From Candidatus Rokuibacteriota bacterium (GTDB lineage Bacteria > Methylomirabilota > Methylomirabilia > Rokubacteriales > CSP1-6), in contig QHSI01000117.1 of assembly GCA_003221515.1 (NCBI GenBank), positions 1-39,567 on the forward strand: a DNA stretch of 39,567 nucleotides, in the 5' to 3' direction. Below the pieces are notes generated by a model, which saw only the letters and a list, made by a program, of their open reading frames with translations, ran no database searches and had not been told where the DNA came from. Of the stretch, positions 3,018 through 35,887 are shown piece after piece. A program made the position numbers and the translations under genes. Each line of letters opens with the position of its first letter. Position 1 is the first letter of the stretch.

Positions 3018-4835
<1,818 letters not shown>

Positions 4836-4853
4836 CGGCTCGGCTCGATTCTC

Positions 4854-5703: not shown

Positions 5704-5721
5704 CGAAAGGGTGACCACGCA

Positions 5722-13505: not shown

Positions 13506-13559
13506 CAAAGCTCGCGACGTCCGCCTGCCACCTGCCGGCGCGGCGGTGTGGCGCCCGCG

Positions 13560-15730: not shown

Positions 15731-15744
15731 AGATCAGGAGGGTT

Positions 15745-17195: not shown

Positions 17196-18157
17196 TGGGA
17201 CAGCGGGTCGCCATCACGGGTGTCGGCGTGGTGGACGAGCGCACGCCGGACGTCGCGACCTGGCTCGCGGACGAGTCGGAAGCCCGGCGCCTCTCGCGCA
17301 TTTGTCAGCTGACCGTGGCGGCCGGCCGCCGGGCGCTGGCGGACGCCGGCCTCGACGCCCACGGCGGGCTGGCGGTGATGGTCGGCACCGAGTTCGGGGA
17401 CATGGTCTCGACGATCTCGTTCGTGGACGGATACCTCGGTCGCGGGCCCGGCGGCCTCTCGGCGTTGCTCTTCCCGCACACGGTCATGAACACGATGGCG
17501 GCGACGACGGCGATCGCCGTCTCGGCGAAGGGCCTTTCGCTGACCCTCAGCGCGTTGACGGTCGCCGGCGAGCTGGCGATTGCGCGCGCGGCGTCGGCGA
17601 TCCGCGCCGGCCGCGTGGGGGCGTGCCTGGCGGGCGGCGCCGACGAGCCCGCCCCGCTCGTCATGAGCGCGCTGCGCGAGGCGGGCGCCGCGCCAGAGCT
17701 CCGGGCGGCCGGCGCGGGCTTCGTCGTGCTCGAGACTTTCGACGGCGCGCGCGAGCGTGGCGCCCGGATCCTCGGCGAGATCGCCGGCGCCGCCTGGCGC
17801 GCGGTGCCGGCGCGTCCTCATAGGATTGGGAGCACCGCGAGCTCGCGCGCGATCGCCGCCGCCCTCACCGAGGCGGGCGCAAGCGCCGCCGAGGTCGGGC
17901 GTGTCTACACCAGCGCGAACGGCGACGGTCCCCGCGAGGAATGGGAGCGCGCGCTGGTCGACGCGGCGCTGGCCCCGCACCGCCTGACGCATCGCTCGCT
18001 GAGCGTGCCGACCGGGCGCCACTCCGGCCTGGCCGCGCACTCCGTGGCGACGGCAGCGTCGGAGGGCGGCGACAAGCTGGCGCTCGTCCACGCGGTCGCC
18101 CGCGGCGGCAATCAGGTTGCGATCCTCGTCCGCGGCCCGGACGGTTCTGATTCATGA
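17195..18157 (+). CDS. Ketosynthase-like protein lacking catalytic residues
   Basis: A 320-aa ketosynthase-fold homologue with the N-terminal VAITGVGVVDERTPDVATWL and a FVVLE strand typical of the family. At the Cys position, ungapped alignment with the neighbouring KS puts Thr at about residue 122 (GLSLTLSALTVAG). The first active-site His region reads TSANGDG instead of NAHGTAT, so that His is Asn. It should therefore be inactive as a condensing enzyme and probably partners with the KS at 16017. It overlaps the KS stop at 17195 and the following GT2 by four bases (ATGA). It is only remotely similar to the other Cys-less protein. Confidence 0.75.
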   Translation: MGQRVAITGVGVVDERTPDVATWLADESEARRLSRICQLTVAAGRRALADAGLDAHGGLAVMVGTEFGDMVSTISFVDGYLGRGPGGLSALLFPHTVMNTMAATTAIAVSAKGLSLTLSALTVAGELAIARAASAIRAGRVGACLAGGADEPAPLVMSALREAGAAPELRAAGAGFVVLETFDGARERGARILGEIAGAAWRAVPARPHRIGSTASSRAIAAALTEAGASAAEVGRVYTSANGDGPREEWERALVDAALAPHRLTHRSLSVPTGRHSGLAAHSVATAASEGGDKLALVHAVARGGNQVAILVRGPDGSDS

Positions 18158-19215
18158 GCGCGCTGATCGTCGTTCCCGTCTTCAACGAAGCCGGCACGGT
18201 CGGCGAGGTGGTGGCCGCGGCGCAGGCGCACGGCGCCGTGCTGGTGGTCGACGACGGCTCGCGCGACGGAAGCGCCGACGTCGCGCGGCGGGCCGGCGCC
18301 GACGTGATCCGCCACCCGCGGCGGCTCGGCAAGGGCGAAGCGATCCGGACCGGCGTCGCCGCCGCGCAGGCGCGCGGCGCGTCGATCGTCGTGACGCTCG
18401 ACGGCGACGGACAGCACAGCCCGGCCGAGCTCGGCGCCCTGCTCGACGCGGCGCGGGCCATGCCGCGGGCCATCGTGGTCGGAGTTCGTCGCGGAGAGTG
18501 CGGCGGCCTGCCGCCCGACCGATTGAACGCGATGAGGGTCGCCGGATTCTTCGTCAACTGGGCGTGCGGCCTCAGGCTCGACGACACTCAGTCGGGCTTC
18601 CGGGCCTACCCGATCGAGCTCTTCGACCACGTCCAGCCCCGTCACGGCGGCTTCGTGTTCGAGACCGAAGTGCTGGTCGCTGGCGTCGCGCGCGGCTGGC
18701 CGGTCCACGAAGTGCCGGTGACCGCGATTCCCCGGGCTCGCCAGCGCAGCCGGTTTCGCCCGGTCAGCGACGGCGTCGCGATCGGCGGCTATCTCGCGGG
18801 CCGCGTGGCCGTGCGCTGGGCGATCGAGGCCGGCGCTCTCGTGGGCGCGCTCGTGAAGCCATTCCTCGGCGAGCGGCGTCGCGCCCGGCACGCGGTGACG
18901 ATGGAGCAGGCCGCGATCTACGCCGGCGCGCCGGCGCTGTGGGCGTTGTCGATCGGCAGCTCGGCGATCCAGCACGTCGTGAACCGGGTCAACCTGTGGC
19001 GACGCGACCCGCGGCCCCGCCGGGCGCTGGTCGCCGCCCAGGCGACCGTCGCCGCGCCGGTGCTGCTGGTACTCCTCGTCGTGCAGGCGTTCGCGCCGCG
19101 GCGGATGCCCGACTTCGTCTCGCCGCTCGTGCGCTGGTTCTGCTCGCAGGACCGGCTCGACGCCGAGCCCGAGCCGCTCGCCACCGTCGCGAACCCGATC
19201 AGCCCGCACCGGTGA
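18154..19215 (+). CDS. GT2 glycosyltransferase, polyprenyl-phosphate sugar type
   Basis: A 353-aa family-2 glycosyltransferase resembling dolichol-phosphate mannose synthase and ArnC. Seen are VVPVFNEAGTV at the N-terminus, the nucleotide-binding DDGSRDGS, the DXD-type LDGDGQHSP, and the QSGFRAYP acceptor-loop motif. The C-terminal 100 residues have one or two hydrophobic segments (about 249-267 and 289-310) that could anchor it in the membrane. Members of this group often load a sugar onto undecaprenyl phosphate. With the small DMT transporter (23530) and the ArnT-like GT83 (23898) it could form a sugar-loading, flipping and transfer chain (inference). It is coupled to both neighbours by overlaps. 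Confidence 0.85.
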   Translation: MSALIVVPVFNEAGTVGEVVAAAQAHGAVLVVDDGSRDGSADVARRAGADVIRHPRRLGKGEAIRTGVAAAQARGASIVVTLDGDGQHSPAELGALLDAARAMPRAIVVGVRRGECGGLPPDRLNAMRVAGFFVNWACGLRLDDTQSGFRAYPIELFDHVQPRHGGFVFETEVLVAGVARGWPVHEVPVTAIPRARQRSRFRPVSDGVAIGGYLAGRVAVRWAIEAGALVGALVKPFLGERRRARHAVTMEQAAIYAGAPALWALSIGSSAIQHVVNRVNLWRRDPRPRRALVAAQATVAAPVLLVLLVVQAFAPRRMPDFVSPLVRWFCSQDRLDAEPEPLATVANPISPHR

Positions 19216-20483
19216 TGGCACCCGAACTCCACGACGTCATCGTGGTCGGGGGAGGGCCGGCCGGCTCCACGACCGGCGCGTTCCTCGCCCGGGCGGGCCG
19301 GCGCGTGCTCCTGTTCGAGCGCGAGCAGTTCCCGCGGTTTCACGTCGGTGAGTCCCTGCTGCCGGCGACGATGCCGATCCTCGACCGGCTGGGCGCGCTG
19401 CCGGCCGTCGCGGCGCACGGCTTCCAGACGAAGTACGGCGCCGCGTTCTCCGACCAGGAGTCGGCCACCGAGCACACGTTCTATTTCCTCAGGGGCCAGC
19501 CGTGGCCGAACTACTCCTTCCAGGTCCAGCGCGGGGACTTCGACGCGCTGCTGCTCGACCACGCGGCGAAGCAAGGCGTCGAGGTCCGCCACCGCGCCGG
19601 CGTAGAGTCAGTGGCGTTCGATGCCGACGGCGTGACCGTATCGGCGCGCCACGACGGAACGCCGCTCACGGCGCGCGCGAAATTCCTGGTCGACGCGAGC
19701 GGGCGCGACGCCCTGCTCGCCGCCACGCTCGGCCACCGCGAGCGCATTCCCAACCTCGGCAAGGTCGCGCTCTTCGCCCATTTCCGTGGCGCCGAGCGCG
19801 CCCACGGCCGCGACGAGGGCAACATCCAGATCCACGTCTTCGCGGACGGCTGGTTCTGGTGGATTCCGCTCGCCGGTGATCTCACCAGCGTCGGCTGCGT
19901 CATGCACGCGCGGACCGTGCGCGAATGGCCGGGGAGCCTCGACGCGCTCTACGCCGAGATGATCCGCCGGTGCGAGCGCGTCGCCCGCGGGCTGGTCGGC
20001 GCCGAGCGGGTGACCGAGATCCACCGGGTCGCCAACTTCTCCTACGCCAATGCTCCGATCGTCGGCGACCGGTTCCTGGCGGTCGGCGACGCGGTCGCGT
20101 TCGTCGACCCGATCTTCTCGACCGGCGTGCACATCGCCATGCAGTCGGGCGAGCTGGCCGCCCGCGCGATCGACGAGGCGCTCGCCGACGACCGCTTCAC
20201 CGCGGCGCGGTTCGCGCCGTATCAGAAGACGCTCGAGCGGGGGCTGCGGCCATTCTTCCGCTTCATCCACAAGTACTACGAGCCGGCGTTCCTCGAGACG
20301 TTCATGCGCCCGCGGACACGCTTCGTCCTGCACGCCGTGCTCAGCGTGCTCTCCGGGGGCGCGTTTCTGAGGATTCGCTGGAGCACGCGAGTGGCCCTCG
20401 AGGTGCTGTTCGCCGCGGCGCGCATCAACGTCTGGGCGCGCCGCCGCGCCGGCCGGCCGGTGGAGTCGCGACTCGAGTGGTGA
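19215..20483 (+). CDS. FAD-dependent halogenase-like oxidoreductase
   Basis: A 422-aa flavoprotein of the halogenase/geranylgeranyl-reductase superfamily. The FAD dinucleotide fold is VIVVGGGPAGST near the N-terminus, followed by FPRFHVGESLLP. The halogenase hallmark WxWxIP is present (W213, W215, I217, P218), and a Lys at 73 in FQTKYGAAF sits where carrier-protein-dependent halogenases have their catalytic Lys. The second FAD region is GDRFLAVGDAVAFVDPIFSTG. The C-terminal 100 residues are basic and partly hydrophobic. It may halogenate or otherwise oxidise an ACP-bound intermediate of the neighbouring ketosynthases; many family members do not halogenate, so the reaction is open. Overlaps both neighbours. 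Confidence 0.82.
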   Translation: MAPELHDVIVVGGGPAGSTTGAFLARAGRRVLLFEREQFPRFHVGESLLPATMPILDRLGALPAVAAHGFQTKYGAAFSDQESATEHTFYFLRGQPWPNYSFQVQRGDFDALLLDHAAKQGVEVRHRAGVESVAFDADGVTVSARHDGTPLTARAKFLVDASGRDALLAATLGHRERIPNLGKVALFAHFRGAERAHGRDEGNIQIHVFADGWFWWIPLAGDLTSVGCVMHARTVREWPGSLDALYAEMIRRCERVARGLVGAERVTEIHRVANFSYANAPIVGDRFLAVGDAVAFVDPIFSTGVHIAMQSGELAARAIDEALADDRFTAARFAPYQKTLERGLRPFFRFIHKYYEPAFLETFMRPRTRFVLHAVLSVLSGGAFLRIRWSTRVALEVLFAAARINVWARRRAGRPVESRLEW

Positions 20484-21667
20484 GGCCCCTCCGGGTGCTC
20501 CGTGGCTATCTGTTCACGGTCCTCGGCATCGCGATCGGCGTCGCGGGCCTCGTGTCGCTGGGCGCGATGAGCGAGCGGATCGTGCGCTTCATCGACGGCG
20601 GCGATCGGTTCGTCTTGGGGCAGATCTCCGTCGCCGGGCGCGGCATGGGCATGGGAGCCGGATTCACCGCCGGCGGCCTTCTGCCGGCCTCGGCGGTCGC
20701 CGCGATCGCGGCCGTGCCGGGCGTGGCGGGCGTCCAGCCGCAGGTGATGCTCCCGCTGAACCCGAGCACGTCGCAGTTCATGACGCTGACCCAGGAGCTG
20801 GTGCTCGGCTTCGACCTCTCGGTCCCGATGCCGAACCGTCACTATCGCTCGCTGCCGGTGCGTGCCGGGCGCTTCCTGCGCGAGGGCGACCGCCGGGTCG
20901 CGGTCCTCGGCGCCGCGTTCGCGGCGTCGCGGGGCCTCGGCGTGGGCTCGCGGCTCACGCTCGAGGGCGAGTCGTACGAGGTGGTGGGCGTCCTGGACCG
21001 GATGTTGACGGCGCCCGATCGATTCGTGATGGTGCCGATCGCCGACGCGCGCGCGCAGTGGGTCGCGAAGGACGCGCTCCTGCGCACCGTGCTCGCCTCG
21101 GGCGCGATGCCGCTCACCGCCTCCGACCTCAACACCGGCGCCGCGGTCGGGTGGCGCGACGGCGAGGACCCGGATGCGGTGGCGCTGCGCATCCGGGAGC
21201 GCGTGCCGGGCGTCAACGTCCAGCTCCCGAGCGAGCTGAGCCAGCTCCTCCGCTCGTCGACCGCGTTCTTCTCCGCGCTGCTGGCCGGCATCGGCGTCCT
21301 GGCGTTCGTCATCGGCGGCCTCTCGCTGGCCAACACCGTCGCCGCCGCCGTCTTCGAGCGCATTCGCGACTTCGGCGTGAAGCGCGCGCTGGGCGCCACC
21401 GACCTGCAGCTCGGGCGCGAGGTGCTGGCCGAGGCGCTGGCGGTGACGCTGGTCGGCGGCCTCGCCGGCATCGCGCTGGCGCTCTCGCTCGGATCGTTCA
21501 TCGACGCCTTCGTCGCGGGCGGCAACCAGCAGCTCTTCCACTTCTCGCCGCGCCTGCTCGGTGGCGCCCTCGCGTTCTCCGTCCTGCTCGGGACCGCCGC
21601 CGCGGCGTACGCGACCGCCCGCGTCGTCTCCGTCTCGCCGGCCGAGGCGATCCGCCGGGCCAGCTGA
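20480..21667 (+). CDS. ABC transporter permease, MacB/FtsX family
   Basis: A 395-aa membrane protein with the FtsX/MacB layout: one N-terminal membrane helix (about 9-30), a large periplasmic domain, and three C-terminal helices (about 271-293, 320-345 and 358-380). The last ends in the VSVSPAEAIRRAS signature typical of these permeases. MacB-type transporters move lipids, lipoproteins, peptides or toxins by a mechanotransmission mechanism. The start is GTG 20480, overlapping the flavoenzyme stop; the ATPase follows at TGATG. Given the operon, export of the pathway product or of its lipid carrier is inferred. Confidence 0.88.
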   Translation: MRPLRVLRGYLFTVLGIAIGVAGLVSLGAMSERIVRFIDGGDRFVLGQISVAGRGMGMGAGFTAGGLLPASAVAAIAAVPGVAGVQPQVMLPLNPSTSQFMTLTQELVLGFDLSVPMPNRHYRSLPVRAGRFLREGDRRVAVLGAAFAASRGLGVGSRLTLEGESYEVVGVLDRMLTAPDRFVMVPIADARAQWVAKDALLRTVLASGAMPLTASDLNTGAAVGWRDGEDPDAVALRIRERVPGVNVQLPSELSQLLRSSTAFFSALLAGIGVLAFVIGGLSLANTVAAAVFERIRDFGVKRALGATDLQLGREVLAEALAVTLVGGLAGIALALSLGSFIDAFVAGGNQQLFHFSPRLLGGALAFSVLLGTAAAAYATARVVSVSPAEAIRRAS

Positions 21668-22347
21668 TGCTGCGCGCCGTCGGGCTCGTCAAGTCGTACC
21701 GGGCCCCGTCGGGGGCGCCGATTCGCGTGCTGGGCGGCGTCGACCTGACCGTGAAGGCGGGCGAGATCGTCGTCGTCACCGGCCCGTCGGGCTCGGGCAA
21801 GAGCACGTTGCTGAACGTCCTCGGGCTGCTCGAGGCCGGCGACGGCGGCGACGTGTGGTACCAGGACGACCGCGTGACCGCGCTCGGCCGCACCGCGAGG
21901 AGCCGGGCGCGGGGCGGCTACGTCGGCTTCCTGTTCCAGTCGTTCCTGCTGCTGCCGTCGCTCACGGCGCTGGAGAACGTGCTGCTGGCCGCGCGCTACG
22001 TCGGGCGCTCGGGGCCGGCGACCCGACAGCGGGCGCTCGATCTCCTGGCCGAGGTCGGCGTCGCGGATCGCCGCGACCATTTCCCGCCGCAGCTCTCGGG
22101 CGGCGAGCAGCAGCGCGTCGCCTTCTGCCGCGCGGTGCTGAACGATCCGCCGCTGTTGCTGGCCGACGAGCCGACCGGAAGCCTCGACGACGCCAACGGC
22201 GCGGTGATCCTCGCCGCGCTTCGTGGTCGGGCGCGCGCCGGCGCCGCGGTCGTCGTCGTGAGCCACCGGCCGGAGGCCGCCGTCGGCGCCACGACCGTAT
22301 ACCGGCTGCGGGACGGCGCGCTCGAGTCGTCGTGGCCGCATGAATAG
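21667..22347 (+). CDS. ABC transporter ATPase, LolD/MacB type
   Basis: A 226-aa ATP-binding subunit. Walker [11 protein letters not shown]-loop [18 protein letters not shown], signature LSGGEQQR, Walker [13 protein letters not shown] and H-loop VVSH are all intact. It pairs with the permease that ends at its start codon. The ENV residue triplet after the Q-loop is typical of LolD-like exporters. Its 3' end overlaps the start of the next, much less GC-rich gene by eight bases. Confidence 0.93.
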
Positions 22348-23092
22348 CGCCAACGTCGCGGTGTTCGCGGTTCTGGCGGCCCTGATGACCGCGCTGCCGT
22401 CGGCGGACTATGCGCACGGTGCTGCGCCACAAGCGCAATACGTTCTGGCGATGAGCAAAGACGACAAGATCTGTAAGCCCCTTCTAGCTGTGTACAACCG
22501 CAACATCAGCCTGGACCTCGGCCCAAAATCTCAGCCCTACCCATATCCTTGGCCGGCGCCGAGCCAAGTATCGCTGAAGTGGACCACCAAGAAGTGGCAA
22601 GGATTAGCCGACGATCAGCGCGTTCTGGAGAAGGCTTACACCGTAGCAGAGGCCGATGTTGACGGCGATGGCCGGATGAATATCGTCGTCCGGTTGGCGG
22701 CTTGGCTTCGCAGCGACGACCGTTTCACTTCGCTCACGGTGTTCCCGGGAGGAACTGTACTTCCCGATCAGATGGATCAGTACAAACGTTTCGAGCCACA
22801 GCAGGCAGTAGCCACGGTGGTCGCAGGCGGTTATGACCTCCCCAAGCTGAATCGAAGGGTCCAGCCCACAGCGCTCAACGATTTCGACGTCATTCGCTTT
22901 GGTGGCCGTGAGTTTGTCACCGGCAAGACAGTGGAGATGGACGGGATCGTCGAGCTGAAGAACGTGCCCCGGTGGCGAGTGGTCAGCCGCGTGCGCATCG
23001 CGGCCTCACCCAACCGTCCTGAACCTGACCTCGACAAGGTTCTCGATAGCGTGTGCTACTTCCAACTGAAAGCGTCTCCTTCGAAGGGATAA
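22340..23092 (+). CDS. Secreted protein of unknown function, atypical composition
   Basis: A 250-aa protein with an N-terminal hydrophobic signal sequence (about residues 5-24, likely cleaved near AHG-AAP). It has no recognised family. DVDGDGRMN near residue 114 resembles a calcium-binding loop of dockerin or EF-hand type. Two Cys remain in the mature part. The gene is markedly less GC-rich than its neighbours and uses A/T-ending codons more often, so it was probably acquired recently. Even so, its ATG lies inside the ATPase gene, coupling it to the operon. It is followed by another exported protein. Confidence 0.6.
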
Positions 23093-23116
23093 CGATTGCC
23101 AGAGAGGAGGAATCGC

Positions 23117-23530
23117 ATGAATCGCATGCTGGGAGCGCTCGCGCTGGTGCTGAGCCTCGTGACCGTCACTTGCGCCGCCGAGCCCGTGTCGGAGACGTAC
23201 GGGGTGCCGCTCGACAAGGCCTGGAGCGTCACCCAGGCGGTCCTCAAGCAGCTCGGCTGGGACATCGAGAAAGCGGACCGCGAGATCGGCTGGATCACCA
23301 CGGACTCGCGGCGCTTCGAGGGCGAGGACTACGGTGTCTACGCCAAGGGGACGCGCCATCGGCTGGTCATCCACCTGAAGGCGGCCGGCACGGACCGGAC
23401 GACGCTCTCGGTGGAGCGCACCGTGTTCAAGCGGGAGCGGATCCTCTGGATGGACAACGACGAGCCGATCGCGACCACGGACCAGACCGTGGAGAAGAGC
23501 CTGCTCGCGGCGATCCGGAAGTCGCTCTGA
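23117..23530 (+). CDS. Exported protein, BamC-like
   Basis: A 137-aa protein with a signal sequence ending near TCAAEP (a lipobox-like VTCA is seen, so it may be a lipoprotein). The mature part, with AWSVTQAVLKQLGWDIE, GWITTDSRRF and later beta strands, resembles one BamC/NlpB-type domain, a fold used by outer-membrane assembly lipoproteins; this is a weak match. ATG 23117 follows a good Shine-Dalgarno (AGAGGAGG) and is preferred over TTG 23096. The next gene starts at its stop (TGATG). Its role in the locus may be envelope placement of the product, which is a guess. Confidence 0.6.
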   Translation: MNRMLGALALVLSLVTVTCAAEPVSETYGVPLDKAWSVTQAVLKQLGWDIEKADREIGWITTDSRRFEGEDYGVYAKGTRHRLVIHLKAAGTDRTTLSVERTVFKRERILWMDNDEPIATTDQTVEKSLLAAIRKSL

Positions 23531-23901
23531 TGCCGAAGACCCTGGTCCTGGTGTTGATCGCGACGCTGATCGGCGGCACCGGCCACGTCCTCCTGTCGAA
23601 GGGCATGCGATCGGTGGGAGATCTCACCGAGGCGCCGGCCCTTCGCCTGGGCGCCATGGTCGCCGCCGCCCTGACGAGTCCGTGGCTCTTGGTGGGCGTA
23701 GCGCTCCAGGCGGCGTTCTTCGTGATGTACCTGACGCTGCTCTCGCGCGCCCCGGTGACCCAGGTGCTGCCGTTGACCGCGGTCGATTACATCGTCGTCG
23801 CGTTGGTGGCACGGTTGCTGCTCGCCGAGGCGGTGACGCCGACCCGCTGGGCGGGAATTCTCTTGATCGTCGCCGGCGTCTTCCTGGTCTCACGAACCTG
23901 A
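23530..23901 (+). CDS. Small DMT-type transporter, ArnE/EamA-like
   Basis: A 123-aa protein with four predicted membrane helices (about 4-22, 38-58, 64-84 and 99-120), the size and layout of SMR/ArnE-type half transporters. The central SRAPVTQVLPLTAVDYIVVAL and LLLAEAVTPTRWAGILLIVAG segments are typical of the EamA repeat. In the aminoarabinose pathway, ArnE/ArnF flip an undecaprenyl-phosphate sugar between ArnC and ArnT; the GT2 at 18154 and the ArnT-like gene directly downstream suggest the same job here. ATG 23530 overlaps the previous stop. Small-molecule export is an alternative. Confidence 0.75.
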   Translation: MPKTLVLVLIATLIGGTGHVLLSKGMRSVGDLTEAPALRLGAMVAAALTSPWLLVGVALQAAFFVMYLTLLSRAPVTQVLPLTAVDYIVVALVARLLLAEAVTPTRWAGILLIVAGVFLVSRT

Positions 23902-25658
23902 CGCGCGCGGGGCGCGGCTATGAACAGGGGACGACGCCGCTCCTCGCCGCGGCGCTGGCGGCGCTCGCCGCGGTCCCGCTCCTCTTCGGCGGTCTCGGCG
24001 CCGTGCCGTTCGACGACCCGGGCGAGGGGATGCACGCGGAGATCGCGCGCGAGCTGGCGGCGTCCGGCGATCCGTTGACGCTGACGCTGAACGGCGTCCG
24101 CTACGTCGACAAGCCGCCGCTCCTCTACGTGCTGGCCGCCCTCGGCTTCGCGACTTTGGGCCCGAGCGAAGCGGTGGCGCGCGCCGTCCCGGCGGTGGCC
24201 GCGCTCGCCGCCATCTGGGCCACCACGTGGCTCGGCGCGCGGCTGCTCGACGGCTCCGGCGGCGTCGTGGCGGGTCTGGCGTTGCTGACGAGTGTGGGCT
24301 TCTTCGCGTTCGGTCGCTACGTCCGACCGGAGACACTGTTCGTGGCGGCGCTCGCCGGCGGATTCGCCCTGTGCCTGGTCGGAATCAGCGAGGGCCGGCG
24401 CGGCCTCTGTGTCGGCGGCCTCTCCGTCTTCGGGATCGCCGCGCTGACCAAGGACCCGCTGGGCGCCGTGCTGCCGCCGCTGGCGATCGGCCTGGCGCTC
24501 GTCCTGGCCGGACGGGCGCGCCCCCTCGGCGCGTGGCTGCCGTGGTCGGGCGTGCTCGGGGGCCTGGTCGTCGGTTTCGGCTGGTGGATCGGCATGGAGC
24601 TGCGCACGCCCGGGTTCAGCTGGTACACAGCGATCGACAACCACGTCTTGAACGTGGCGCGAGCCCGCTACTTTCCCGACGAGGACGTGCCGCTGTCCGC
24701 GGTGCACTTCCTCACCGTCGCGATCCTGGGCTCGGCGCCGTGGGCGCTCGCCGCCGGCGTCGCGATCTGGTCGCTCGTACGGCGGCGGGCGTGGCGCGAC
24801 GCCGACGAGATCGCCTGGGTGGCGCTGACGATCTGGATCGTCGGCGTGCTCGGGTTCACCGCGCTGTCGCCGTTCCGCCTGCCACACTACGGCCTGCCGG
24901 CCTCGTTCGCGCTGGCGCTCCTCGCGGCGCGCGGCTGGCAGGGCCATGGCGGTCGCGGGCTCGCGCTGGCTCACGCCGGCTTCTTCGCGCTGGTCGCCCT
25001 CGGCTCCGTGCTGGCGTGGGCGAGCGACGGCTCGCGGTTCCTCTTCTCGGTGGTCGGTACGACCGACGTCGCCTCGCTGAAGAGCTCCGCGGCCGGGTTG
25101 CCCCCTCCGATCCCGCCGTTCGCCGAGTTCCGGCCGCTCCTCGGCGCCAACGCCGTCGTGTTCGCGGCGGGCGCGCTCGTGACCAGCCTCCTGACTGTCC
25201 TCGCGGGCTGGTCGGAGCGCGCGCAGCGACTCGTCGTCTTCGCGGTCATCACGACCATGGTCGGCGCGCTTCCTTCGTGCGCGGCGGCGCTCGGGCTCGT
25301 CGCGTCCCATCGCGCCGTGAGCGGCCTGGCCCGCGACGTGGGGCGACTGATGGCGCCCGAGGATCTCCTGGTCCACGAGGGCCCCCTCGAGAACTCCGGC
25401 GCCCTCGAGTGGTACGCCGGGCGCAGGCCCGTGATCGTCGACGGCTGGCGCAGCGTGCTGGGGTTCGGCGCCGAGCGGCCGGAGGCGCGCGACGTCTTCT
25501 GGAGCGGCGACCGGCTCCGCGAGGCGTGGACCAGCGGCCGGCGCGTGTGGGTGGTGAGCGTGCGGAGCCCGGCGCGCAGCCTCGTCGCCGATCTGCCGGG
25601 CGCCCGCCTGCTCGCAGTGGCCGGCGGACGGGCCCTCTGGGTGAATGAGCTAAGATAA
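23898..25658 (+). CDS. ArnT-like (GT83) membrane glycosyltransferase
   Basis: About 586 aa with some 11-12 hydrophobic helices. The first periplasmic loop has PFDDPGEGMHAEIAREL and the YVDKPPLLY motif, hallmarks of ArnT/PMT-family transferases that use polyprenyl-phosphate sugars. The C-terminal region forms a soluble periplasmic domain (EWYAGRRPVIVDGW). Its acceptor is unknown; in ArnT it is lipid A. No ATG, GTG or TTG occurs in frame between 23682 and 24003, yet the first helix is encoded there. A CTG at 23898, overlapping the previous stop as CTGA, matches the four-base overlaps used throughout this operon and is taken as start, with doubt. Confidence 0.82.
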   Translation: MTRAGRGYEQGTTPLLAAALAALAAVPLLFGGLGAVPFDDPGEGMHAEIARELAASGDPLTLTLNGVRYVDKPPLLYVLAALGFATLGPSEAVARAVPAVAALAAIWATTWLGARLLDGSGGVVAGLALLTSVGFFAFGRYVRPETLFVAALAGGFALCLVGISEGRRGLCVGGLSVFGIAALTKDPLGAVLPPLAIGLALVLAGRARPLGAWLPWSGVLGGLVVGFGWWIGMELRTPGFSWYTAIDNHVLNVARARYFPDEDVPLSAVHFLTVAILGSAPWALAAGVAIWSLVRRRAWRDADEIAWVALTIWIVGVLGFTALSPFRLPHYGLPASFALALLAARGWQGHGGRGLALAHAGFFALVALGSVLAWASDGSRFLFSVVGTTDVASLKSSAAGLPPPIPPFAEFRPLLGANAVVFAAGALVTSLLTVLAGWSERAQRLVVFAVITTMVGALPSCAAALGLVASHRAVSGLARDVGRLMAPEDLLVHEGPLENSGALEWYAGRRPVIVDGWRSVLGFGAERPEARDVFWSGDRLREAWTSGRRVWVVSVRSPARSLVADLPGARLLAVAGGRALWVNELR

Positions 25659-25664: not shown

Positions 25665-27092
25665 ATGGCCGACTACCTGCGCACGTTGTTCCTGCACCCG
25701 CCGTCGTTTCGGGGATTCGACGGAGGGGCCGGGGCCCGCTACCAGGCGCGACGCGAGATCCGGTCGTTCTGGTATCCGACGTGGCTAGCCCAGCCCGCGG
25801 CGCTGGTGCCCGACAGCCGCCTCGTCGACGCGCCGCCGGCCGGGCTCGCGCTGCCCGACGTGGCGCCGCTCGCGCGCGAGTACGACCTGGCGGTGCTCCA
25901 CACGAGCGCGGCCTCGTTCGCGCACGACGTGCGCGTTGCCGAGGCGCTCAAGCGCGAGAACGCCGGCCTCCGCGTCGGCTTCGTCGGCGCGCACGTGGCC
26001 GTCCAGCGCGAGCGCGCGCTCGCCGCGTCGCCGGCCATCGAGTTCGTCGCCGGCAACGAGTTCGACTTCACGATCCAGGAGATCGCGCAGGGGCGCCCGC
26101 TCGCCGCGGTGGCCGGGCTCAGCTATCGCGTGAACGGGCACTTCGAGCGGACGGCCGAGCGTCCACCGCTCGAGAACATGGACGCGCTGCCGTTCGTGGT
26201 CGACGTCTACCGGCGCGACCTCGTCGTCGAGCAGTACTTCATCGGCTATCTGCTGCACCCGTACGTGTCGCTCTACACGGGGCGCGGATGCCGGTCGCGC
26301 TGCACGTTCTGCCTCTGGCCCCAGACCGTGGGTGGCCACCGGTACCGCACGCGCTCCGTCGAGCACGTCGTGAGCGAGATCGCGCAGGCCCGGCGCCACT
26401 TCCCGCAGGTGAAGGAGTACTTCTTCGACGACGACACGTTCACGGACGACCTGCCGCGCGCCGAGGCGATCGCCCGCGGCCTGGGCCGGCTCGGCGTGAC
26501 GTGGTCGTGCAACGCCAAGGCGAACGTGCCGGCCTCGACGCTGAAGGTGCTCCGCGACAACGGCCTGCGGCTCTTGCTGGTGGGCTACGAGTCCGGGAGC
26601 CAGGCGATCCTGAACAACGTCAAGAAGGGCGTGCGCCTCGACCTGGCCCGCGAGTTCACCCGCAACGCCAAGGCGCTCGGGATCAAGATCCACGGCACGT
26701 TCATCATGGGGCTGCCGGGCGAGACGCGCGAGACGATCGAGGAGACCATCACGTTCGCGCGCCAGATCGATCCCGATTCGCTCCAGGTGTCGCTGGCGGC
26801 GCCGTACCCGGGCACGGCGCTCTACCAGGAGGCGCTCGAGCGCGGCTGGCTCGAGCGGGACGAGCTCGTGGACGCGGGCGGTGTGCAGGCCAGCGTGCTC
26901 GGCTACCCGCACCTGTCGCGCACGGAGATCTTCGCGTCGGTCGAGAGCTTCTACCGGCGATTCTACTTCCGGCCGCGGAAGATCTTCGGCTTCCTCAGGG
27001 AGATGGCGACGGACGCCGCGGTTTGCCGGCGCCGCCTCGCCGAGGGCGCCGAGTTCGTGCGCTTCCTCGCGCGCCGTCACTCGTCGGCATAG
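25665..27092 (+). CDS. HpnJ-like B12-binding radical SAM protein
   Basis: A 475-aa radical SAM enzyme strongly resembling HpnJ, which makes the cyclitol ether head group of bacteriohopanetetrol. The N-terminus LFLHPPSFRGFDGGAGARYQ and the DAPP segment match that family. A cobalamin-binding-like Rossmann domain covers about residues 1-180. The 4Fe-4S motif is C209-x3-C213-x2-C216 in GCRSRCTFCLWPQ, followed by FFDDDTF and the MGLPGETRETIEET strand. A -10-like TAAGAT lies eight bases before the ATG. Its last 98 bases overlap the opposing deacetylase gene. The substrate could be a hopanoid or another amino-sugar-bearing lipid; no hopanoid cyclase is in the window. Confidence 0.85.
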   Translation: MADYLRTLFLHPPSFRGFDGGAGARYQARREIRSFWYPTWLAQPAALVPDSRLVDAPPAGLALPDVAPLAREYDLAVLHTSAASFAHDVRVAEALKRENAGLRVGFVGAHVAVQRERALAASPAIEFVAGNEFDFTIQEIAQGRPLAAVAGLSYRVNGHFERTAERPPLENMDALPFVVDVYRRDLVVEQYFIGYLLHPYVSLYTGRGCRSRCTFCLWPQTVGGHRYRTRSVEHVVSEIAQARRHFPQVKEYFFDDDTFTDDLPRAEAIARGLGRLGVTWSCNAKANVPASTLKVLRDNGLRLLLVGYESGSQAILNNVKKGVRLDLAREFTRNAKALGIKIHGTFIMGLPGETRETIEETITFARQIDPDSLQVSLAAPYPGTALYQEALERGWLERDELVDAGGVQASVLGYPHLSRTEIFASVESFYRRFYFRPRKIFGFLREMATDAAVCRRRLAEGAEFVRFLARRHSSA

Positions 27093-27849
27093 CGATGACC
27101 CGCCCGGCGGGATCGCCGGGCGCGGTCGCGTCGGCCACCCTCTCGGCCCGCTCGTCGGCTTCGCGTCCGTCCAGCAGGTCGCCGACCGTGACGAGCTCGT
27201 AGCCCATCTCGCGTATGCCGTCGATCATCGGCGCAAGCGCTGCGACCAGGCGAAGCGGCGCGCCGCGGGTGCCCTCGGCGTCGTGCAGGTCGACGATGGC
27301 GCCGGGATGGGCGCGGTGCAGGACGTCGCCCACCTGCTGCGCCGCCGCCACCGGACGCAAACCTTCTGGCTGGATCGACCAGAGCACGCAGCGCTCTTGA
27401 TGACGACGGAGCGCGCCGAACATCGCCGCGTTGACCATGCCCCACGGCGGCCGGAAAAAACGGGGCGGACGGCCCGCGAGCGACCCGAGCAGGTGGTGAG
27501 CGCGACCGATCTCGTCCTCGGTTCGGCGCGGGCCGCAGAGCCAGAGGCTCCGGTGCGACCAGCCGTGGCTCGCGATCTCGTGCCCCGCGGCCGCGATCCG
27601 TCGCACGGTCTCGGGCACACGCGCCGCGCGCTCGCCGACCAGGAAGAACGACGCGCGTACGTGCTTGTGGACCAGGATGTCCAGGATCCGCTCCGTCCAG
27701 ACCGCGTCGGGGCCGTCGTCGAAGGTGAGCGCGATCGCTCGGCGCGCGGCCGGGCCGCGCCGGACGCAGCCGGTCGTCAGCAGGTGAGGGCCCCAGGCGT
27801 ACGCCGCCCACGCGCCCGCGGCGCCGAGCGCCAGCCGCGCCAGGATCAC
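26995..27849 (-). CDS. Polysaccharide deacetylase, NodB family
   Basis: A 284-aa protein with an N-terminal hydrophobic helix (about 5-24) as membrane anchor and a NodB domain. The motifs are complete: TFDDGPD (Asp44-Asp45), SHGWSH with zinc ligands His95 and His99, RPPWG at 133-137 and DLHD with His189. It should remove N-acetyl groups from an N-acetylglucosamine-type sugar, probably on the periplasmic face. The start is GTG 27849, overlapping the preceding GT by four bases. The last 33 or so residues are Arg/Pro-rich, lie antisense to the HpnJ-like gene and look unconserved. Confidence 0.9.
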   Translation of the reverse strand: MILARLALGAAGAWAAYAWGPHLLTTGCVRRGPAARRAIALTFDDGPDAVWTERILDILVHKHVRASFFLVGERAARVPETVRRIAAAGHEIASHGWSHRSLWLCGPRRTEDEIGRAHHLLGSLAGRPPRFFRPPWGMVNAAMFGALRRHQERCVLWSIQPEGLRPVAAAQQVGDVLHRAHPGAIVDLHDAEGTRGAPLRLVAALAPMIDGIREMGYELVTVGDLLDGREADERAERVADATAPGDPAGRVIAMPTSDGARGSARTRRPRRGGAGKPRRPSPSP

Positions 27850-28964
27850 GGCGCGCGCACTCCGCGCTCGAGCACCGCGGCGACGATGTGCTCGGTCGCG
27901 TCCGGGCGGCGGAGGCGGCGCATTCGCCCGCGGAGGTGCTCGAGCAGCTCGGGCTCCGCGAGCGCGTGCTCGAGCAGCGCGGTCAGCTCCGACCGCGAGC
28001 GGGCGGCGAGCGCGATCCCGGCGCGCGCCGCGAAACGCTCGTTACGGCGCTCCTGCCCGGGGAGCGAGCCGTAGAGGAGCAGCGGGGTCTCGCTCGCCAT
28101 CGCCTCCGCGAGCGTCATGCCCCCCGCCTTCGTCACCAGGAGGTCGGCCGCCGCCATCAGCCGCCGGACGTCGTCGACGTAGCCCAGCGCACGGATCGGG
28201 CTCCCATCGGTCAGTCGCGCGAGGGTCGCGTGGAGCGGCCGGTCGCGCCCGGCGACGACCAGCCCCTGGAGCGGCCGGCGCATCGAGAGAAGCGCGCGGG
28301 TGACGTCGGGCAGTCGGCCGAGCGAGCCCTGCGAGCCCGCCATCGCCAGCACGACCGGCGCCTGTGCCGACAGACCCAGGCTCGCCCGCGCCGCCGACGG
28401 TGCCACAGGCTCGGCGAAGTCGGCGCGGAGCGGCACGCCGGTCACGACCACGCGCTCGGCCGGGATGCCGCGCGCGATGAGCTCGTGACGCACCTCACCC
28501 GCGGCAACGCAATAGCGGTCGACGTGGCGCGCGATCCACTGGCTGTGCGCGACGAAGTCGGTGACGACCGTGGTGTGGGGCGGCATCCTGGTCCCGAGCC
28601 CGGCGAGCGCCGACATCGCCGCCGCCGGCGTGGCGTGGACCGTGACGACGACGTCGGGCGCCAGCCGCTCGAGCAGCGCGAAGAGCCGCCGGGTGCCGAG
28701 CCGCGTCACGCCGAGCGTCAGCGACGAGTCGCTCGCCATCCAGTCGCCGAGCGCGTAGCCGAGGCCCCACAAGAACGGCGCCTGCCGGAGCAACGCGTAG
28801 TAGACCGCGCGGCTCGCGCGATCGAAGACGGGATGGACCAGCTCGGCGAAGTGGTCGACGACGGTCACCGTCGCCTGCGCCCGCTCGAAGCCGGCGGCGA
28901 GACTCCGGGCGGCGGCGTTGTGACCCGAGCCGTAGCTGGCGCTGAGGATCAGGACTCGCGTCAT
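27846..28964 (-). CDS. MGDG-synthase-like glycosyltransferase (GT28)
   Basis: A 372-aa GT-B fold transferase of the MurG/MGDG synthase/UgtP group, which adds sugars from UDP donors to diacylglycerol or similar lipids. The N-terminal LILSASYGSGHNAAARSL is the family signature, TTVVTDFVAHSQW matches the lipid-binding domain, and the donor-binding region is LVTKAGGMTLAEAMASETPLLLYGSLPGQE. It forms a two-gene operon with the deacetylase (GTGA overlap), suggesting glycosylation with an N-acetylated sugar followed by deacetylation. ATG 28964 gives the expected start; a GGAGG lies about 14 bases upstream on the minus strand. Confidence 0.9.
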   Translation of the reverse strand: MTRVLILSASYGSGHNAAARSLAAGFERAQATVTVVDHFAELVHPVFDRASRAVYYALLRQAPFLWGLGYALGDWMASDSSLTLGVTRLGTRRLFALLERLAPDVVVTVHATPAAAMSALAGLGTRMPPHTTVVTDFVAHSQWIARHVDRYCVAAGEVRHELIARGIPAERVVVTGVPLRADFAEPVAPSAARASLGLSAQAPVVLAMAGSQGSLGRLPDVTRALLSMRRPLQGLVVAGRDRPLHATLARLTDGSPIRALGYVDDVRRLMAAADLLVTKAGGMTLAEAMASETPLLLYGSLPGQERRNERFAARAGIALAARSRSELTALLEHALAEPELLEHLRGRMRRLRRPDATEHIVAAVLERGVRAP

Positions 28965-29408: not shown

Positions 29409-30317
29409 ATGTCTCGCGTGGAGAGCCCGTCCGCGGTCCGAGCACCGCTCCCGCGCTGGTACGCCCACCGCTACAACCGCTCCGAGCTGTATCGGCTGGT
29501 CGCGGCGGCGACGCGATGGCTGCCGCGGCCCACGCGCCTCGAGCTGGCCCGCCGCATCGGCCACCTGGCGCCGCGGGTCCTGCCGGCCGAGCGCGCTGCG
29601 GTCAGAAACACGCTGTCCGTCATGACCGGCGCCGTCGGCTCACGGCTCGCCGAGCTGACGCGCGACGTCTTCGGCGAGTTCGCGATGTGCTTCAGCGACC
29701 TGATCGTGGCCAGCCGCCGCCCGGCCCGGGTCTCGGCGCACATGGGGCCCGTGCGGGGCATCGAGCAGCTCCTGCGCCAGGAAGGCGCGGTCGTGTCGCT
29801 GACGGCCCACGTCGGCAACTGGGAGCTGGCCGGGCGGCTGCTCGCCCAGCATTCGGCGCGCCCGACGCACGTCGTGGTGGCGGTGGAAGAAGCGCGCGCC
29901 CTCGAGCGCTGGCTGCGACGCGACGGCGACGGCGTGCGCTTCGTGGCCCGCGCGCAGCCGACGGTCTCGCTGACGCTGATGGCCGCGCTGCGCCGCGGTG
30001 AAGCGGTCGCGCTACAGGGCGACCGCGCGCTCGGCAATCGCGGCGACGTGATGGTGCCCTTCTTCGGCCGGCCCGCGCCGTTTCCGGTGGGCCCCTTCCA
30101 GCTCGCACGCGCCGCGGCCGTCCCGCTGGTTCCGGCGTTCTGCACGCTCGGCGCCGACCGCGAGTACGTCGTCCGCGTCCTCGATCCGCTGCCGGTCGTC
30201 CGCGGAGCGGAGGAGGACGGACTACGGACGTGGGTGGCCAACCTCGAGCGCGTCGTGGCCGAAAAGCCGACGCAGTGGTTCAATTTCTTCGACATATGGA
30301 ATCCGTTCGGGTCCTAG
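29409..30317 (+). CDS. LpxL/HtrB-like lysophospholipid acyltransferase
   Basis: A 302-aa protein of the lipid A biosynthesis acyltransferase family, which moves acyl chains from ACP to lipid acceptors at the inner membrane. The catalytic HxxxxE is HVGNWE at 134-139 (counted from ATG 29409), followed by QGDRALGNRGDVMVPFFGRPAPFPVG, the second conserved block, and the terminal WFNFFDIWNPF. The TAAGAT at 29405-29410 overlaps this ATG; if it is a promoter, GTG 29418 in the same frame is the start. Acyltransferases of this family also occur in aryl-polyene and flexirubin clusters. It overlaps the methyltransferase by 22 bases. Confidence 0.85.
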   Translation: MSRVESPSAVRAPLPRWYAHRYNRSELYRLVAAATRWLPRPTRLELARRIGHLAPRVLPAERAAVRNTLSVMTGAVGSRLAELTRDVFGEFAMCFSDLIVASRRPARVSAHMGPVRGIEQLLRQEGAVVSLTAHVGNWELAGRLLAQHSARPTHVVVAVEEARALERWLRRDGDGVRFVARAQPTVSLTLMAALRRGEAVALQGDRALGNRGDVMVPFFGRPAPFPVGPFQLARAAAVPLVPAFCTLGADREYVVRVLDPLPVVRGAEEDGLRTWVANLERVVAEKPTQWFNFFDIWNPFGS

Positions 30318-32405: not shown

Positions 32406-33950
32406 CTACTGGGCCTTGACGCGCATGTCCTCGTACGACGGCCACACCGTCATCGGGACCAGGTTGATCGTGTGGTCGGCGATCCGCGGCCCGATGCCCA
32501 TGAGCGCGCGCAGGTCCATGATCGGCGCGAACATCGCCCGGTCGATCGTGAGCTGCTGGATCCGGTGGAGGAGCGCCTCGCGCTTCTTGACGTCGCGCTC
32601 GCCCGCTTGCTGCTGGAACATGTCGTCGATGTCGGGATACCCGCCGTAGGCGTAGGCGCCCTTGGAGCTGATGAACTCCGCGACCCGGCTGGCCGCGTTG
32701 CCCGAGTTGCCGACCGCGGTCATGAACACGCCGCGCAGCTTCTTTTCCCGCCATGCGGCGTAGAAGGCCGCGCGCTCCATCGGCCGCATCTTCATCCGGA
32801 TGCCGACCGCGTTGAGGTAGTTCAACGTCGCCTCCGCCACCGTGGGGAACCCGGGAATCGGCACGAACTCGCCGGCGTCGAGCCCGTTCGGATAGCCGGC
32901 CTCGGCGAGGAGCTGCTTGGCCTTCTGCGGATCGTAGGGCGGCGGCTCGACCTGCAGCGCGAAGTCCATGACGCGAGGCACGATGACCCCGGCCGGCGGG
33001 CAAAAGCCCAGACAGGCGGCCTCGTTCGTCGTCTTGCGGTCGAGGGCCAGGTTCACCGCTTGCCGCAGGCGCTTGTCGTACCAGGGTGACTTCGCGTCCC
33101 ACTGCTCGGCGAACTCGAGCCAGAAGATGGACGCGTGGCGTGACGAGACGAGCTGCAGACGCGGATCCCGCTTCACCTCGAGACCCTCTGGACCGTCCAG
33201 CGCGACGGCGATGTCCGCCTCGCCCGTCTTCAGCATCGCCAGACGCGTGCCCACGTCGGGCACGCTTTTGAGGACCAGCCGCTTCACGTTGGGCACGCGC
33301 CGCCAGTATCCCGTGTACGCCTCCAGCACCACCTCGACGCCCGGCGTGTGGCTCACGAACTTGTACGGTCCGGCGCCGATCGGCTGCTTGCGGAACCCGT
33401 CGTCGCCGACGTGGGTCATGTATTTCTTGGGGACGACGATGCCGGCGCCGGTGGCGGTCGTCCCGTAAAACGTCATGAAGTCGGGCCAGGGGGCGTTCAG
33501 CCGGAAGCGCACCGTGAGCGGATCGACGACGTCCACCTGCTTGACGCGCGTCTGCAGCTCCTTGAGGCCCGCGCCTTTGTAACGCTCGAAGCTGAATTTC
33601 ACGTCCTCGGCGGTGAGCGGATCGCCGTTGTGGAACTTGAGCCCGCGGCGCAGCTTGAACTCGTACACGAGCCCGTCGGCGCTCTCCGTCCACGACTCGG
33701 CCAGGCTCGCGCCCATCTTCTGGTTCGGCATCGGGCGCACGAGCGCGTCGTGGATCGCGTAGAGCGTGCCGAACGGGGTGATCTGGGGCGGGGCGCTCGA
33801 CGGGTCGAACCATGTGGGCGCGATCGTGACGTGCCAGGCGATGATCACTTCGCCCGCGGGGGGCGCCTGGCCGGATACCGTCTGGGGCGCTGCGAACGTC
33901 GACAGGACCGCGACGAGCAGCGCCGTCATCGTGAGACGTGAGGTCCGCAT
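32406..33950 (-). CDS. Family-5 extracellular solute-binding protein
   Basis: A 514-aa periplasmic binding protein of the peptide/nickel (DppA/OppA) type. A Sec signal peptide precedes the QAPPAGEV mature start. Typical segments are ASLAESWTESADGLVYEFKLRRG, FHNGDPLTAEDVKFSFER (fold signature), IGAGPYKFVSHTPG and LRQAVNLALDRK. The chosen ATG 33950 has GGAGG seven bases upstream; the open frame extends 20 codons more without a signal benefit. Ligand unknown (peptide or other small molecule). It is transcribed away from two related but distinct binding-protein genes and has no permease next to it. Confidence 0.9.
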   Translation of the reverse strand: MRTSRLTMTALLVAVLSTFAAPQTVSGQAPPAGEVIIAWHVTIAPTWFDPSSAPPQITPFGTLYAIHDALVRPMPNQKMGASLAESWTESADGLVYEFKLRRGLKFHNGDPLTAEDVKFSFERYKGAGLKELQTRVKQVDVVDPLTVRFRLNAPWPDFMTFYGTTATGAGIVVPKKYMTHVGDDGFRKQPIGAGPYKFVSHTPGVEVVLEAYTGYWRRVPNVKRLVLKSVPDVGTRLAMLKTGEADIAVALDGPEGLEVKRDPRLQLVSSRHASIFWLEFAEQWDAKSPWYDKRLRQAVNLALDRKTTNEAACLGFCPPAGVIVPRVMDFALQVEPPPYDPQKAKQLLAEAGYPNGLDAGEFVPIPGFPTVAEATLNYLNAVGIRMKMRPMERAAFYAAWREKKLRGVFMTAVGNSGNAASRVAEFISSKGAYAYGGYPDIDDMFQQQAGERDVKKREALLHRIQQLTIDRAMFAPIMDLRALMGIGPRIADHTINLVPMTVWPSYEDMRVKAQ

Positions 33951-34076
33951 TGTCAGCCCTCCAGCATGGGGGGTGTCGTCGTTGTGGGCGCGACGCGCCG
34001 AGAATAGCATCCTTGCCTTGACTTCACCCGGTGCCTATGGGAGGTTCGCCGCACTCGGACCGGGAGGAGAACTTCA
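33951..34076. promoter_or_regulatory. Divergent intergenic region between binding-protein genes
   Basis: These 126 bases must hold promoters for both directions. On the plus side, a segment starting CTTGACTTCA at 34017 and running through ATGGGAG recurs upstream of the second tandem gene (from about 35798), so a control element was duplicated with the gene. A possible -35 TTGCCT (34013) and -10 TATGGG (34036) are 17 bases apart. Confidence 0.35.
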
Positions 34077-35768
34077 ATGCCTGCCACCGACCCTCGCCAG
34101 ACCACTCGCCGCGGCGTGACTCGACGTGATTTCCTCAAGCGGGCCGCCGTGACCAGCGCCGGGATGACCGCGTTGGCTGTCGGCGCGAGTCGGCAAAGAG
34201 CCTCCGCCGCCTCGCCGTATCCCGACTGGATCGGGGCGAGCCTCAAGCCGCCGAAGCGAGGCGGGGTCCTCACCCGGGCCTCGGCCTGGGACCCGCCGGT
34301 GATCGACCCGCGTCTCACGCAATCGGTGGGGCTGTTCCAGTTCGCCGGGCTGACCAGCAATCGCCTCCTGCGGTATGCGTTCGCCGACGAGGCGACCGGT
34401 TACACCGACCTCAGCCTCAAAGGAGACCTCGCCGAGTCCTGGCAGGGGAGTCCCGACCAGCGGGTGTGGACCTTCAAGCTGCGCCGAGGCGTCAAGTGGC
34501 AGAACGTGCCGCCGCTCAATGGGCGCGAGCTGGTCGCCGCCGACATCAAGTACTGCTTCGAGGCCTACGCGAAGGAGGGCGTGCAGGCGTTCACGTTCCA
34601 GGAAATCGAAGGTATGGAGACGCCCGACACGCACACGCTGCGCGTCTACCTCAGGACGCCCAATGCGCTGTTCCCGCAGAACGTCGCCGAGCCCGTCGCG
34701 GTGATCTTCTCGCGCGAGGTCCTCGAGGAGGACGGCGACCTCAAGAAGCGCATGATCGGCACCGGGCCCTTCGTCCTCAAGGAGCACACGCGCAAGGTGC
34801 GCATCGTCCTCCAGCGCAACCCCGACTACTTCGACACCGGTCGGCCCTACGTCGACGAGTACGTCATCCTCTCGGCGCCGGACTCCGCCACCCGCGCCGC
34901 CGCATTCCGCACGGGCCAGAGCGACTTCCTGCCGCTGCAGAGCCCGTCCGAGGTGGAGGCGATCCGCAAGACGAATCCCGCCGCCGTCGTGCAAGCGCTC
35001 ACGCCCTCGATCACGCCGTTCGGGCTGGCGCTGGCCCAGGACAAGCCGCCGTTCAACGACCTGCGCGTCCGCCGCGCGCTCTCGATGGCCATCGACCGCC
35101 AGAGGCAGGTGGACACGGTGTACGAGGGCCACGGCATCGTCACCGCGGGCGTGCCGTGGATCTATTACCAGGACGCGAAGCCGGCGGCGAAGGACCTCGG
35201 CCCCTGGTGGCAGTACCGACCCGCCGACGCCAAGCGGCTGCTGGCCGAGGCCGGTCACCCCAACGGCTTCGAGACGACGCTGTTCTACTACGAGTACTTC
35301 CCGCAGATGTCCTCGCAGGTGCAGCTCGTGCAGCAGGACCTCAAGAAGAACCTCAACGTCAACGTGAAGATCAGCAAGCTCGACTACACGAGCTACTACG
35401 GGCGATACGTCGAGGGCAGGTGGGATGGGATGGCCTGGGGCTTCCAGTCCGGACACGCGGTAGGCCTCGACGAGCGGACGTACGTGTACATGCATTCGAA
35501 GTCGACGAAGAACTTCTTCCGCGTCAACGATCCCCTCATCGACGAGCTGACCGTGAAGCTCCGGCAGGCGCCCGACCGGGCCGAACAGCGCGCGACCGCC
35601 AGGAGGATCGTGGACCGGGAGTACGACCAGGTGCTGAGGATGTGGATGCCCCACGGCTCGAACTTCGTGCTCTTCCAGCCACACCTGAGAAACGTGGCCG
35701 GCGGCGTCCTGCGCGGCACCATCGGATATGGCTCGCCGACCATCGCCCGGCTCTGGATCGACAAGTAG
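34077..35768 (+). CDS. Tat-exported family-5 solute-binding protein (copy 1)
   Basis: A 563-aa substrate-binding protein of a DppA/OppA-type ABC importer. The N-terminus has a twin-arginine signal (TRRDFLKRA) followed by a hydrophobic stretch, so it is exported folded. Typical segments are GDLAESWQGSPDQRVWTFKLR, GVKWQNVPPL, IGTGPFVLKEHTRK and RVRRALSMAIDRQ. A strong GGGAGGAGA Shine-Dalgarno precedes ATG 34077. It is highly similar along its whole length to the next gene, so the pair arose by tandem duplication. The permease genes follow the second copy. Confidence 0.92.
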   Translation: MPATDPRQTTRRGVTRRDFLKRAAVTSAGMTALAVGASRQRASAASPYPDWIGASLKPPKRGGVLTRASAWDPPVIDPRLTQSVGLFQFAGLTSNRLLRYAFADEATGYTDLSLKGDLAESWQGSPDQRVWTFKLRRGVKWQNVPPLNGRELVAADIKYCFEAYAKEGVQAFTFQEIEGMETPDTHTLRVYLRTPNALFPQNVAEPVAVIFSREVLEEDGDLKKRMIGTGPFVLKEHTRKVRIVLQRNPDYFDTGRPYVDEYVILSAPDSATRAAAFRTGQSDFLPLQSPSEVEAIRKTNPAAVVQALTPSITPFGLALAQDKPPFNDLRVRRALSMAIDRQRQVDTVYEGHGIVTAGVPWIYYQDAKPAAKDLGPWWQYRPADAKRLLAEAGHPNGFETTLFYYEYFPQMSSQVQLVQQDLKKNLNVNVKISKLDYTSYYGRYVEGRWDGMAWGFQSGHAVGLDERTYVYMHSKSTKNFFRVNDPLIDELTVKLRQAPDRAEQRATARRIVDREYDQVLRMWMPHGSNFVLFQPHLRNVAGGVLRGTIGYGSPTIARLWIDK

Positions 35769-35887
35769 CGAAGCGAGCCTCCGTCGAGTCAGGATTCCCT
35801 TGACTTCATCAGGGGCGCATGGGAGTTTTGCGCCACTCGCTGCCCCTATTTGCGCCAATATCTGGATATTCATGGGAGGAAGTTGCA

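Follow-up and report, generated by a model that had tools for sequence, protein, structure and literature searches.

Bacteriohopanetetrol (BHT) cyclitol ether is made by the HpnI-HpnK-HpnJ route (Schmerk et al. 2015, as cited in PMC12583986), and the makers of cyclitol-ether hopanoids, which serve as geochemical biomarkers, are predicted through hpnI, hpnK and hpnJ. Acidobacteria with hpnI and hpnJ but without hpnK have been judged incapable of making the ether (PMC5462960), and in four alphaproteobacterial producers none of the three genes was detected, a result left unexplained (PMC12583986). Within the limited literature collection that we searched, we found no paper that assigns a GT28 or NodB enzyme to hopanoid synthesis. 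Here we describe a stretch of 39,567 nucleotides (hereafter the window; contig QHSI01000117.1 of GCA_003221515.1) from a member of the Rokubacteria, bacteria of soil and groundwater whose membrane lipids include hopanoids, in which an hpnJ gene faces an operon encoding a GT28 glycosyltransferase and a NodB-type deacetylase. We consider it somewhat probable that the product of this trio is a hopanoid cyclitol ether, formed through the established three steps but with different enzymes at two of them; the best reading of the wider data is that GT28 enzymes took the place of HpnI on two or more occasions, and NodB that of HpnK, with a hopanoid as the substrate.

The window corresponds to contig C105 of a Rokubacterial genome of 5.1 Mb and 95% completeness. 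All three open reading frames of the trio named in the initial annotation were found, as follows:

25665 to 27092, forward strand: HpnJ, radical SAM BHT-cyclitol-ether synthase family (TIGR03471, CRSRCTFC motif, invariant residues)
26995 to 27849, reverse strand: NodB-type (CE4) deacetylase, proposed to substitute for HpnK, with a hydrophobic segment at the N terminus (PF01522 Polysacc_deac_1, 106.6 bits against a gathering score of 23.1)
27846 to 28964, reverse strand: GT28/MGDG-synthase/UgtP-type glycosyltransferase, proposed HpnI substitute (PF06925 MGDG_synth, 89.7 bits against a gathering score of 25, and a GT28 C-terminal domain)

The HpnJ matches TIGR03471 over its full length (740.9 bits, cut-off 577.6; model positions 2-471 of 472), carries the CxxxCxxC iron-sulphur motif of radical SAM enzymes as CRSRCTFC, retains 182 of the 187 positions invariant among HpnJs linked to HpnI or HpnK, and is the sole HpnJ over the cut-off in its genome. 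Its nearest named relatives come from Candidatus Rokuibacteriota metagenome-assembled genomes (MAGs), and in the HpnJ tree it is nested within the family, adjoining HpnI-linked and shc-linked HpnJs, rather than forming the outgroup clade that the initial annotation had entertained. It is a member of the HpnJ family by sequence, and is predicted to convert BHT-glucosamine to BHT cyclitol ether. A sequence signature in HpnJ for a GT28-type partner was sought and rejected, as positions 83, 126 and 389 vary without tracking partner type.

The two partner genes share 4 base pairs (bp) and form a translationally coupled pair. By sequence, the closest solved structures to the GT28 are a processive diacylglycerol glucosyltransferase (9wde, 137 bits) and MGD1 (4wyi, 116 bits), with MurG far behind. 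It shares fold family and motifs with UgtP/YpfP and MGDG synthase (GT28) but differs from UgtP/YpfP in scoring below the cut-off of NF010135, the UgtP diglucosyl diacylglycerol synthase model (253.7 against 500 bits), in its linkage to hpnJ or hpnN and in its coupling to a deacetylase. The conserved portion of the NodB protein spans approximately 27120-27849; the catalytic motifs TFDDGP, SHGWSH, RPPWG and LHD are present in its sequence and mostly kept in orthologues, and its relatives in the PDB are peptidoglycan and chitin deacetylases. It resembles these CE4 enzymes in domain and catalytic motifs but reaches no equivalog cut-off in NCBIfam (TIGR04243, the NodB chitooligosaccharide deacetylase, gives 117.5 against 240 bits) and is coupled to a lipid-type glycosyltransferase. 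Judged by sequence, then, the two enzymes belong neither to HpnI nor to HpnK; the claim is that they would do the same jobs.

Profile searches of the window's genome returned no HpnI (TIGR03472; best 51.8 bits, cut-off 310) and no HpnK (TIGR03473; best 107 bits, cut-off 232.6). The best HpnK match, a YdjC protein, was rejected as HpnK, being ChbG-like (171 bits to ChbG, a chitin disaccharide deacetylase) and under both cut-offs. Squalene-hopene cyclase (SHC, 777.6 bits), HpnH (522.8 bits) and HpnA (452 bits, cut-off 367.65) are present, and their genes lie side by side on contig C191 with that of an HpnG-like protein (105 bits, under its cut-off). This shc cluster also holds a phosphonopyruvate-decarboxylase-like thiamine pyrophosphate enzyme just short of its cut-off (L237:14767-15933; 307 bits, cut-off 312.5).

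In the proposed mechanism, the GT28 enzyme (GT-B fold) would transfer N-acetylglucosamine (GlcNAc) from uridine diphosphate (UDP)-GlcNAc to BHT, doing the work of HpnI, a GT2 enzyme; the acetyl group would be stripped by the NodB-type deacetylase instead of the YdjC-fold HpnK; and HpnJ, a canonical member of its family, would convert the glucosamine into the cyclitol ether by rearrangement. The sugar donor, lipid acceptor, product, order of steps and action of NodB on a hopanoid are as we infer them. The locus resembles the described route in its true HpnJ, its accompanying glycosyltransferase and deacetylase and the hopanoid genes of its host, and differs in gene order and in having GT28 (GT-B) for GT2 and NodB/CE4 for the YdjC fold. 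Family scores and coordinates confirm that an HpnJ homologue faces an operon of an MGDG-synthase-like GT28 and a NodB enzyme, and the data favour the suggestion in the initial annotation that the HpnI-HpnK-HpnJ logic was rebuilt from other families, with the enzyme activities predicted: no complete hpnI/hpnK pair over the cut-offs was found elsewhere in the genome, and relatives do carry the glycosyltransferase and the deacetylase together with hpnJ.

This co-occurrence was surveyed in 95 genomes of the window's class, all incomplete drafts and mostly MAGs. HpnJ was found in 48, HpnI over its cut-off in 12, SHC in 91, relatives of the window GT28 in 44 and relatives of its NodB in 48; HpnK exceeded its cut-off in three genomes, all outside the window's order, and in none within it. 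Among genomes of the order with one HpnJ, GT28 occurred in 33 of 36 without HpnI and in 0 of 5 with it (Fisher p = 7e-5, uncorrected for kinship); genomes with both systems hold one of each kind, and all four have GT28 (G062 was counted here, as its HpnI contig stops exactly where hpnJ is expected). HpnI and the window-type GT28 thus behave as alternatives. The three HpnI-lacking genomes without GT28 comprise G052, where the locus is at a contig end, G036, which is 75% complete, and G038, which is unexplained. NodB accompanies HpnJ in 42 of 46 genomes of the order (including G055, where a contig end truncates hpnJ) and occurs in 6 of 14 genomes without HpnJ. Neither G055 (hpnJ not found) nor G052 (GT28 not found) was accepted as a counter-example, the genes having been lost at contig ends. 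With the SHC tree standing in for the species tree, independent pairs joined HpnJ with GT28 in 3-5 of 6 cases, HpnJ with NodB in 4-6 of 7 and HpnI with the absence of GT28 in 2 of 2, with none opposite, all numbers too few for significance. One genome, G069, yielded only a divergent squalene-hopene cyclase on a very long branch (C23:2210-4090, L305; 629.8 bits).

Linkage of the three genes was seen in 17 Rokubacterial genomes, which span seven genera, with one more truncated by a contig end, and the arrangement is therefore not chance. In the window, hpnJ and nodB lie tail-to-tail and their reading frames share 98 bp (26995-27092); the same overlap recurs in G048, and other relatives range from overlap to a gap of more than 1 kb, so that overlap is not general. 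Around the trio, the window encodes further lipid- and sugar-related proteins, given here as context:

18154 to 19215, forward strand: GT2 polyprenyl-phosphate sugar synthase-like (PpgS-like) protein (NF058614, 120.6 bits)
23527 to 23901, forward strand: ArnE-like EamA small membrane protein (PF00892, 37 bits; NF011625, 30 bits)
23682 to 25658, forward strand: ArnT-like GT39 membrane glycosyltransferase, directly upstream of hpnJ, part of the ketosynthase (KS) locus context (PF13231, 42.5 bits)
29409 to 30317, forward strand: LpxL-like acyltransferase (PF03279, 86.2 bits)

The GT2 was considered as HpnI and ruled out as PpgS-like. The true start of the ArnT-like gene may lie approximately 225 bp further in; this gene frequently adjoins hpnJ in relatives, and among the regions read the LpxL-like gene is close to a window-type hpnJ only in the window's genus. 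Positions 13548-25658 form an uncharacterised locus conserved across Rokubacteria, with ketosynthases, an acyl carrier protein (ACP)-like domain, a flavin adenine dinucleotide (FAD) halogenase-like enzyme, the PpgS-like GT2, a MacB-like ABC transporter and the ArnE-like and ArnT-like genes. Just past the trio, three solute-binding proteins of one family stand in a row (32406-37591).

Across Rokubacteria, the conserved locus comprises ketosynthases, GT2, FAD enzyme, MacB-like ABC transporter, EamA and ArnT-like genes, with NodB and GT28 at its end in reverse orientation; in the window's HpnJ clade (18 rows, support 99), hpnJ lies between ArnT and NodB. This position inside the KS locus, together with genomes that hold the trio and a separate HpnI-HpnJ pair, as two substrates would explain, favours an alternative in which the substrate of the trio is a lipid other than a hopanoid, perhaps one made by the upstream KS/ACP/FAD locus, and HpnJ is a paralogue that has adopted a new amino-sugar lipid. 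We regard this as unlikely: the trio-type HpnJ is the sole HpnJ in most genomes, and these are hopanoid makers; relatives of the GT28 adjoin hpnN near shc; HpnI and GT28 are mutually exclusive in single-HpnJ genomes; and the invariant HpnJ positions are almost all unchanged. That the trio of the window's clade equips a lipid of the adjoining locus, not a hopanoid, with a cyclitol-ether head group is likewise improbable in our judgement; if true, HpnJ chemistry would be used outside hopanoids. With hopanoid genes in the genome and related GT28 genes in the shc/hpnN neighbourhood, the non-hopanoid lipid raised in the initial annotation is not favoured.

Other genomes place the genes differently. 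In G037, G039, G063 and G073-075 the KS/ArnT locus lacks hpnJ, which is elsewhere, in G037 and G039 beside the shc cluster. In G046, G047 and G077 the GT28 lies in the shc neighbourhood, in the order shc, Mla-type transporter genes, an inositol-3-phosphate-synthase-like gene, an hpnN-like gene and GT28, followed by hpnJ in the opposite direction; at locus L181, GT28 is 3 bp from the hpnN-like gene (TIGR03480, 561 bits) and tail-to-tail with hpnJ, with shc further along, an arrangement that recurs in G046 and G047. In G056 and G060, GT28 is divergent from hpnJ. The five GT28s of G046, G047, G056, G060 and G077 form one clade, and these are therefore rearrangements, not fully independent recruitments. 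GT28 and hpnJ are joined in several arrangements and at two loci, and the link between GT28 and hopanoid genes is direct in three genomes. Between the Mla-type genes and the hpnN-like gene of the Rokubacterial shc cluster, the inositol-3-phosphate-synthase-like gene (L181:13178-14251, reverse strand; L237:16019-17092, forward strand) would place a cyclitol-phosphate synthase in a hopanoid cluster; the L181 copy scores 519.6 bits to TIGR03450 (cut-off 638).

A second GT28 case emerged from 80 HpnJ loci of GTDB genomes, among which most Proteobacteria carry HpnI, and often HpnK too, beside HpnJ. In two MAGs labelled Actinomycetes (L065, L073) and one of Acidobacteriota (L052), a GT28-like gene occupies hpnI's usual place directly upstream of hpnJ, and in L091 (Actinomycetes) a NodB-type gene lies downstream of hpnJ; the HpnJs of L052, L073 and L091 are over the cut-off. 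The GT28s of L052 and L073 are ~29% identical to that of the window, and in the GT28 tree those of L052, L065 and L073 fall outside the Rokubacterial group on long branches, as a separate lineage. A search for HpnI in ten HpnJ genomes found it absent from L052, L065, L073 and L091 and present in all six others. Directly downstream of hpnJ in L073 is a second B12-binding radical SAM gene (4466-5947). Three loci from Gemmatimonadota and Acidobacteriota (L022, L025, L094) have HpnI beside HpnJ with no HpnK nearby, echoing the hpnK gap of Acidobacteria (PMC5462960).

Several observations weigh against a hopanoid trio with two swapped enzymes. UgtP and MGDG synthases, the closest enzymes to the window GT28, use UDP-glucose or UDP-galactose, and UgtP and MGD1 have a donor motif similar to the PGQExxN of the window enzyme, so that use of UDP-GlcNAc is a prediction. 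The exclusion between HpnI and GT28 within the order amounts to two independent lineages, and G050 and G053, two of the four genomes with both systems, show 9% contamination. Genomes G036 and G038 have hpnJ with neither GT28 nor NodB, G082 has GT28 alone, and G070-072, G093 and G094 have GT28 and NodB without hpnJ. These last could stop at BHT-glucosamine, by analogy with Rhodoligotrophos appendicifer, which lacks hpnJ and holds only BHT-glucosamine (PMC12583986). The retention of the pair in these hpnJ-less genomes, and the closeness of the GT28 sequence to diacylglycerol glycosyltransferases, would also suit an ordinary glycolipid or envelope polymer made by GT28 and NodB, beside hpnJ by chance rearrangement, with unrecognised HpnI and HpnK activities feeding HpnJ; given the variety of GT28-hpnJ linkages at two loci, the exclusion with HpnI and the distinct GT28 that stands at the position of hpnI in other phyla, we find this very unlikely. 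Two HpnJ systems each, one by HpnI and one by GT28 and NodB, were seen in G050, G053 and G061 (L162/L163, L166/L167, L177/L178); their HpnI-linked HpnJ copies group with the Gemmatimonadota HpnJ of L025, which suggests transfer or binning contamination.

The remaining point against the hopanoid trio concerns NodB, which occupies the KS/EamA/ArnT locus of G042 and G091 in the absence of hpnJ and GT28; in G042, an HpnI-HpnJ pair lies elsewhere and the KS locus retains NodB without GT28. An Arn-like role may therefore be possible. The Arn and FlmF2-NaxD-FlmK systems form a polyprenyl-phosphate amino-sugar route to lipid A, in which ArnD or NaxD carries out a comparable deacetylation; the window resembles them in bringing GT2, NodB-type deacetylase, ArnE-like and ArnT-like genes into one neighbourhood, and differs in the join of GT28 with HpnJ and in a GT28-NodB pair that persists away from ArnT. 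On this alternative, GT28 replaces HpnI on the hopanoid, an unrecognised enzyme does the HpnK step, and NodB serves the neighbouring locus, deacetylating polyprenyl-phosphate N-acetylhexosamine before ArnT-like transfer. The PpgS-like GT2, ArnE-like and ArnT-like genes of that locus fit such a role, as do G046 and G077, where GT28 is in the shc neighbourhood and NodB on another contig. Against it, GT28 and NodB are coupled through most of the order, including G058, G070, G088 and G093, where neither was seen in the KS locus; NodB associates with HpnJ in the survey; and a NodB gene stands beside hpnJ in another phylum (L091). We take this alternative to be possible, if rather doubtful. NodB likely takes the part of HpnK, since the order lacks HpnK and HpnJ is accompanied by NodB both where the glycosyltransferase is GT28 and where it is HpnI; the role of NodB is less certain than that of GT28, because it also tracks the neighbouring KS/EamA lipid locus.

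Should GT28 and NodB enzymes prove able to replace HpnI and HpnK, genomes with gaps in hpnI or hpnK, of the kind reported in Acidobacteria and in alphaproteobacterial producers, may have been misread. Rokubacteria would then become candidate sources of cyclitol-ether hopanoids, and the missing steps would gain named genes.

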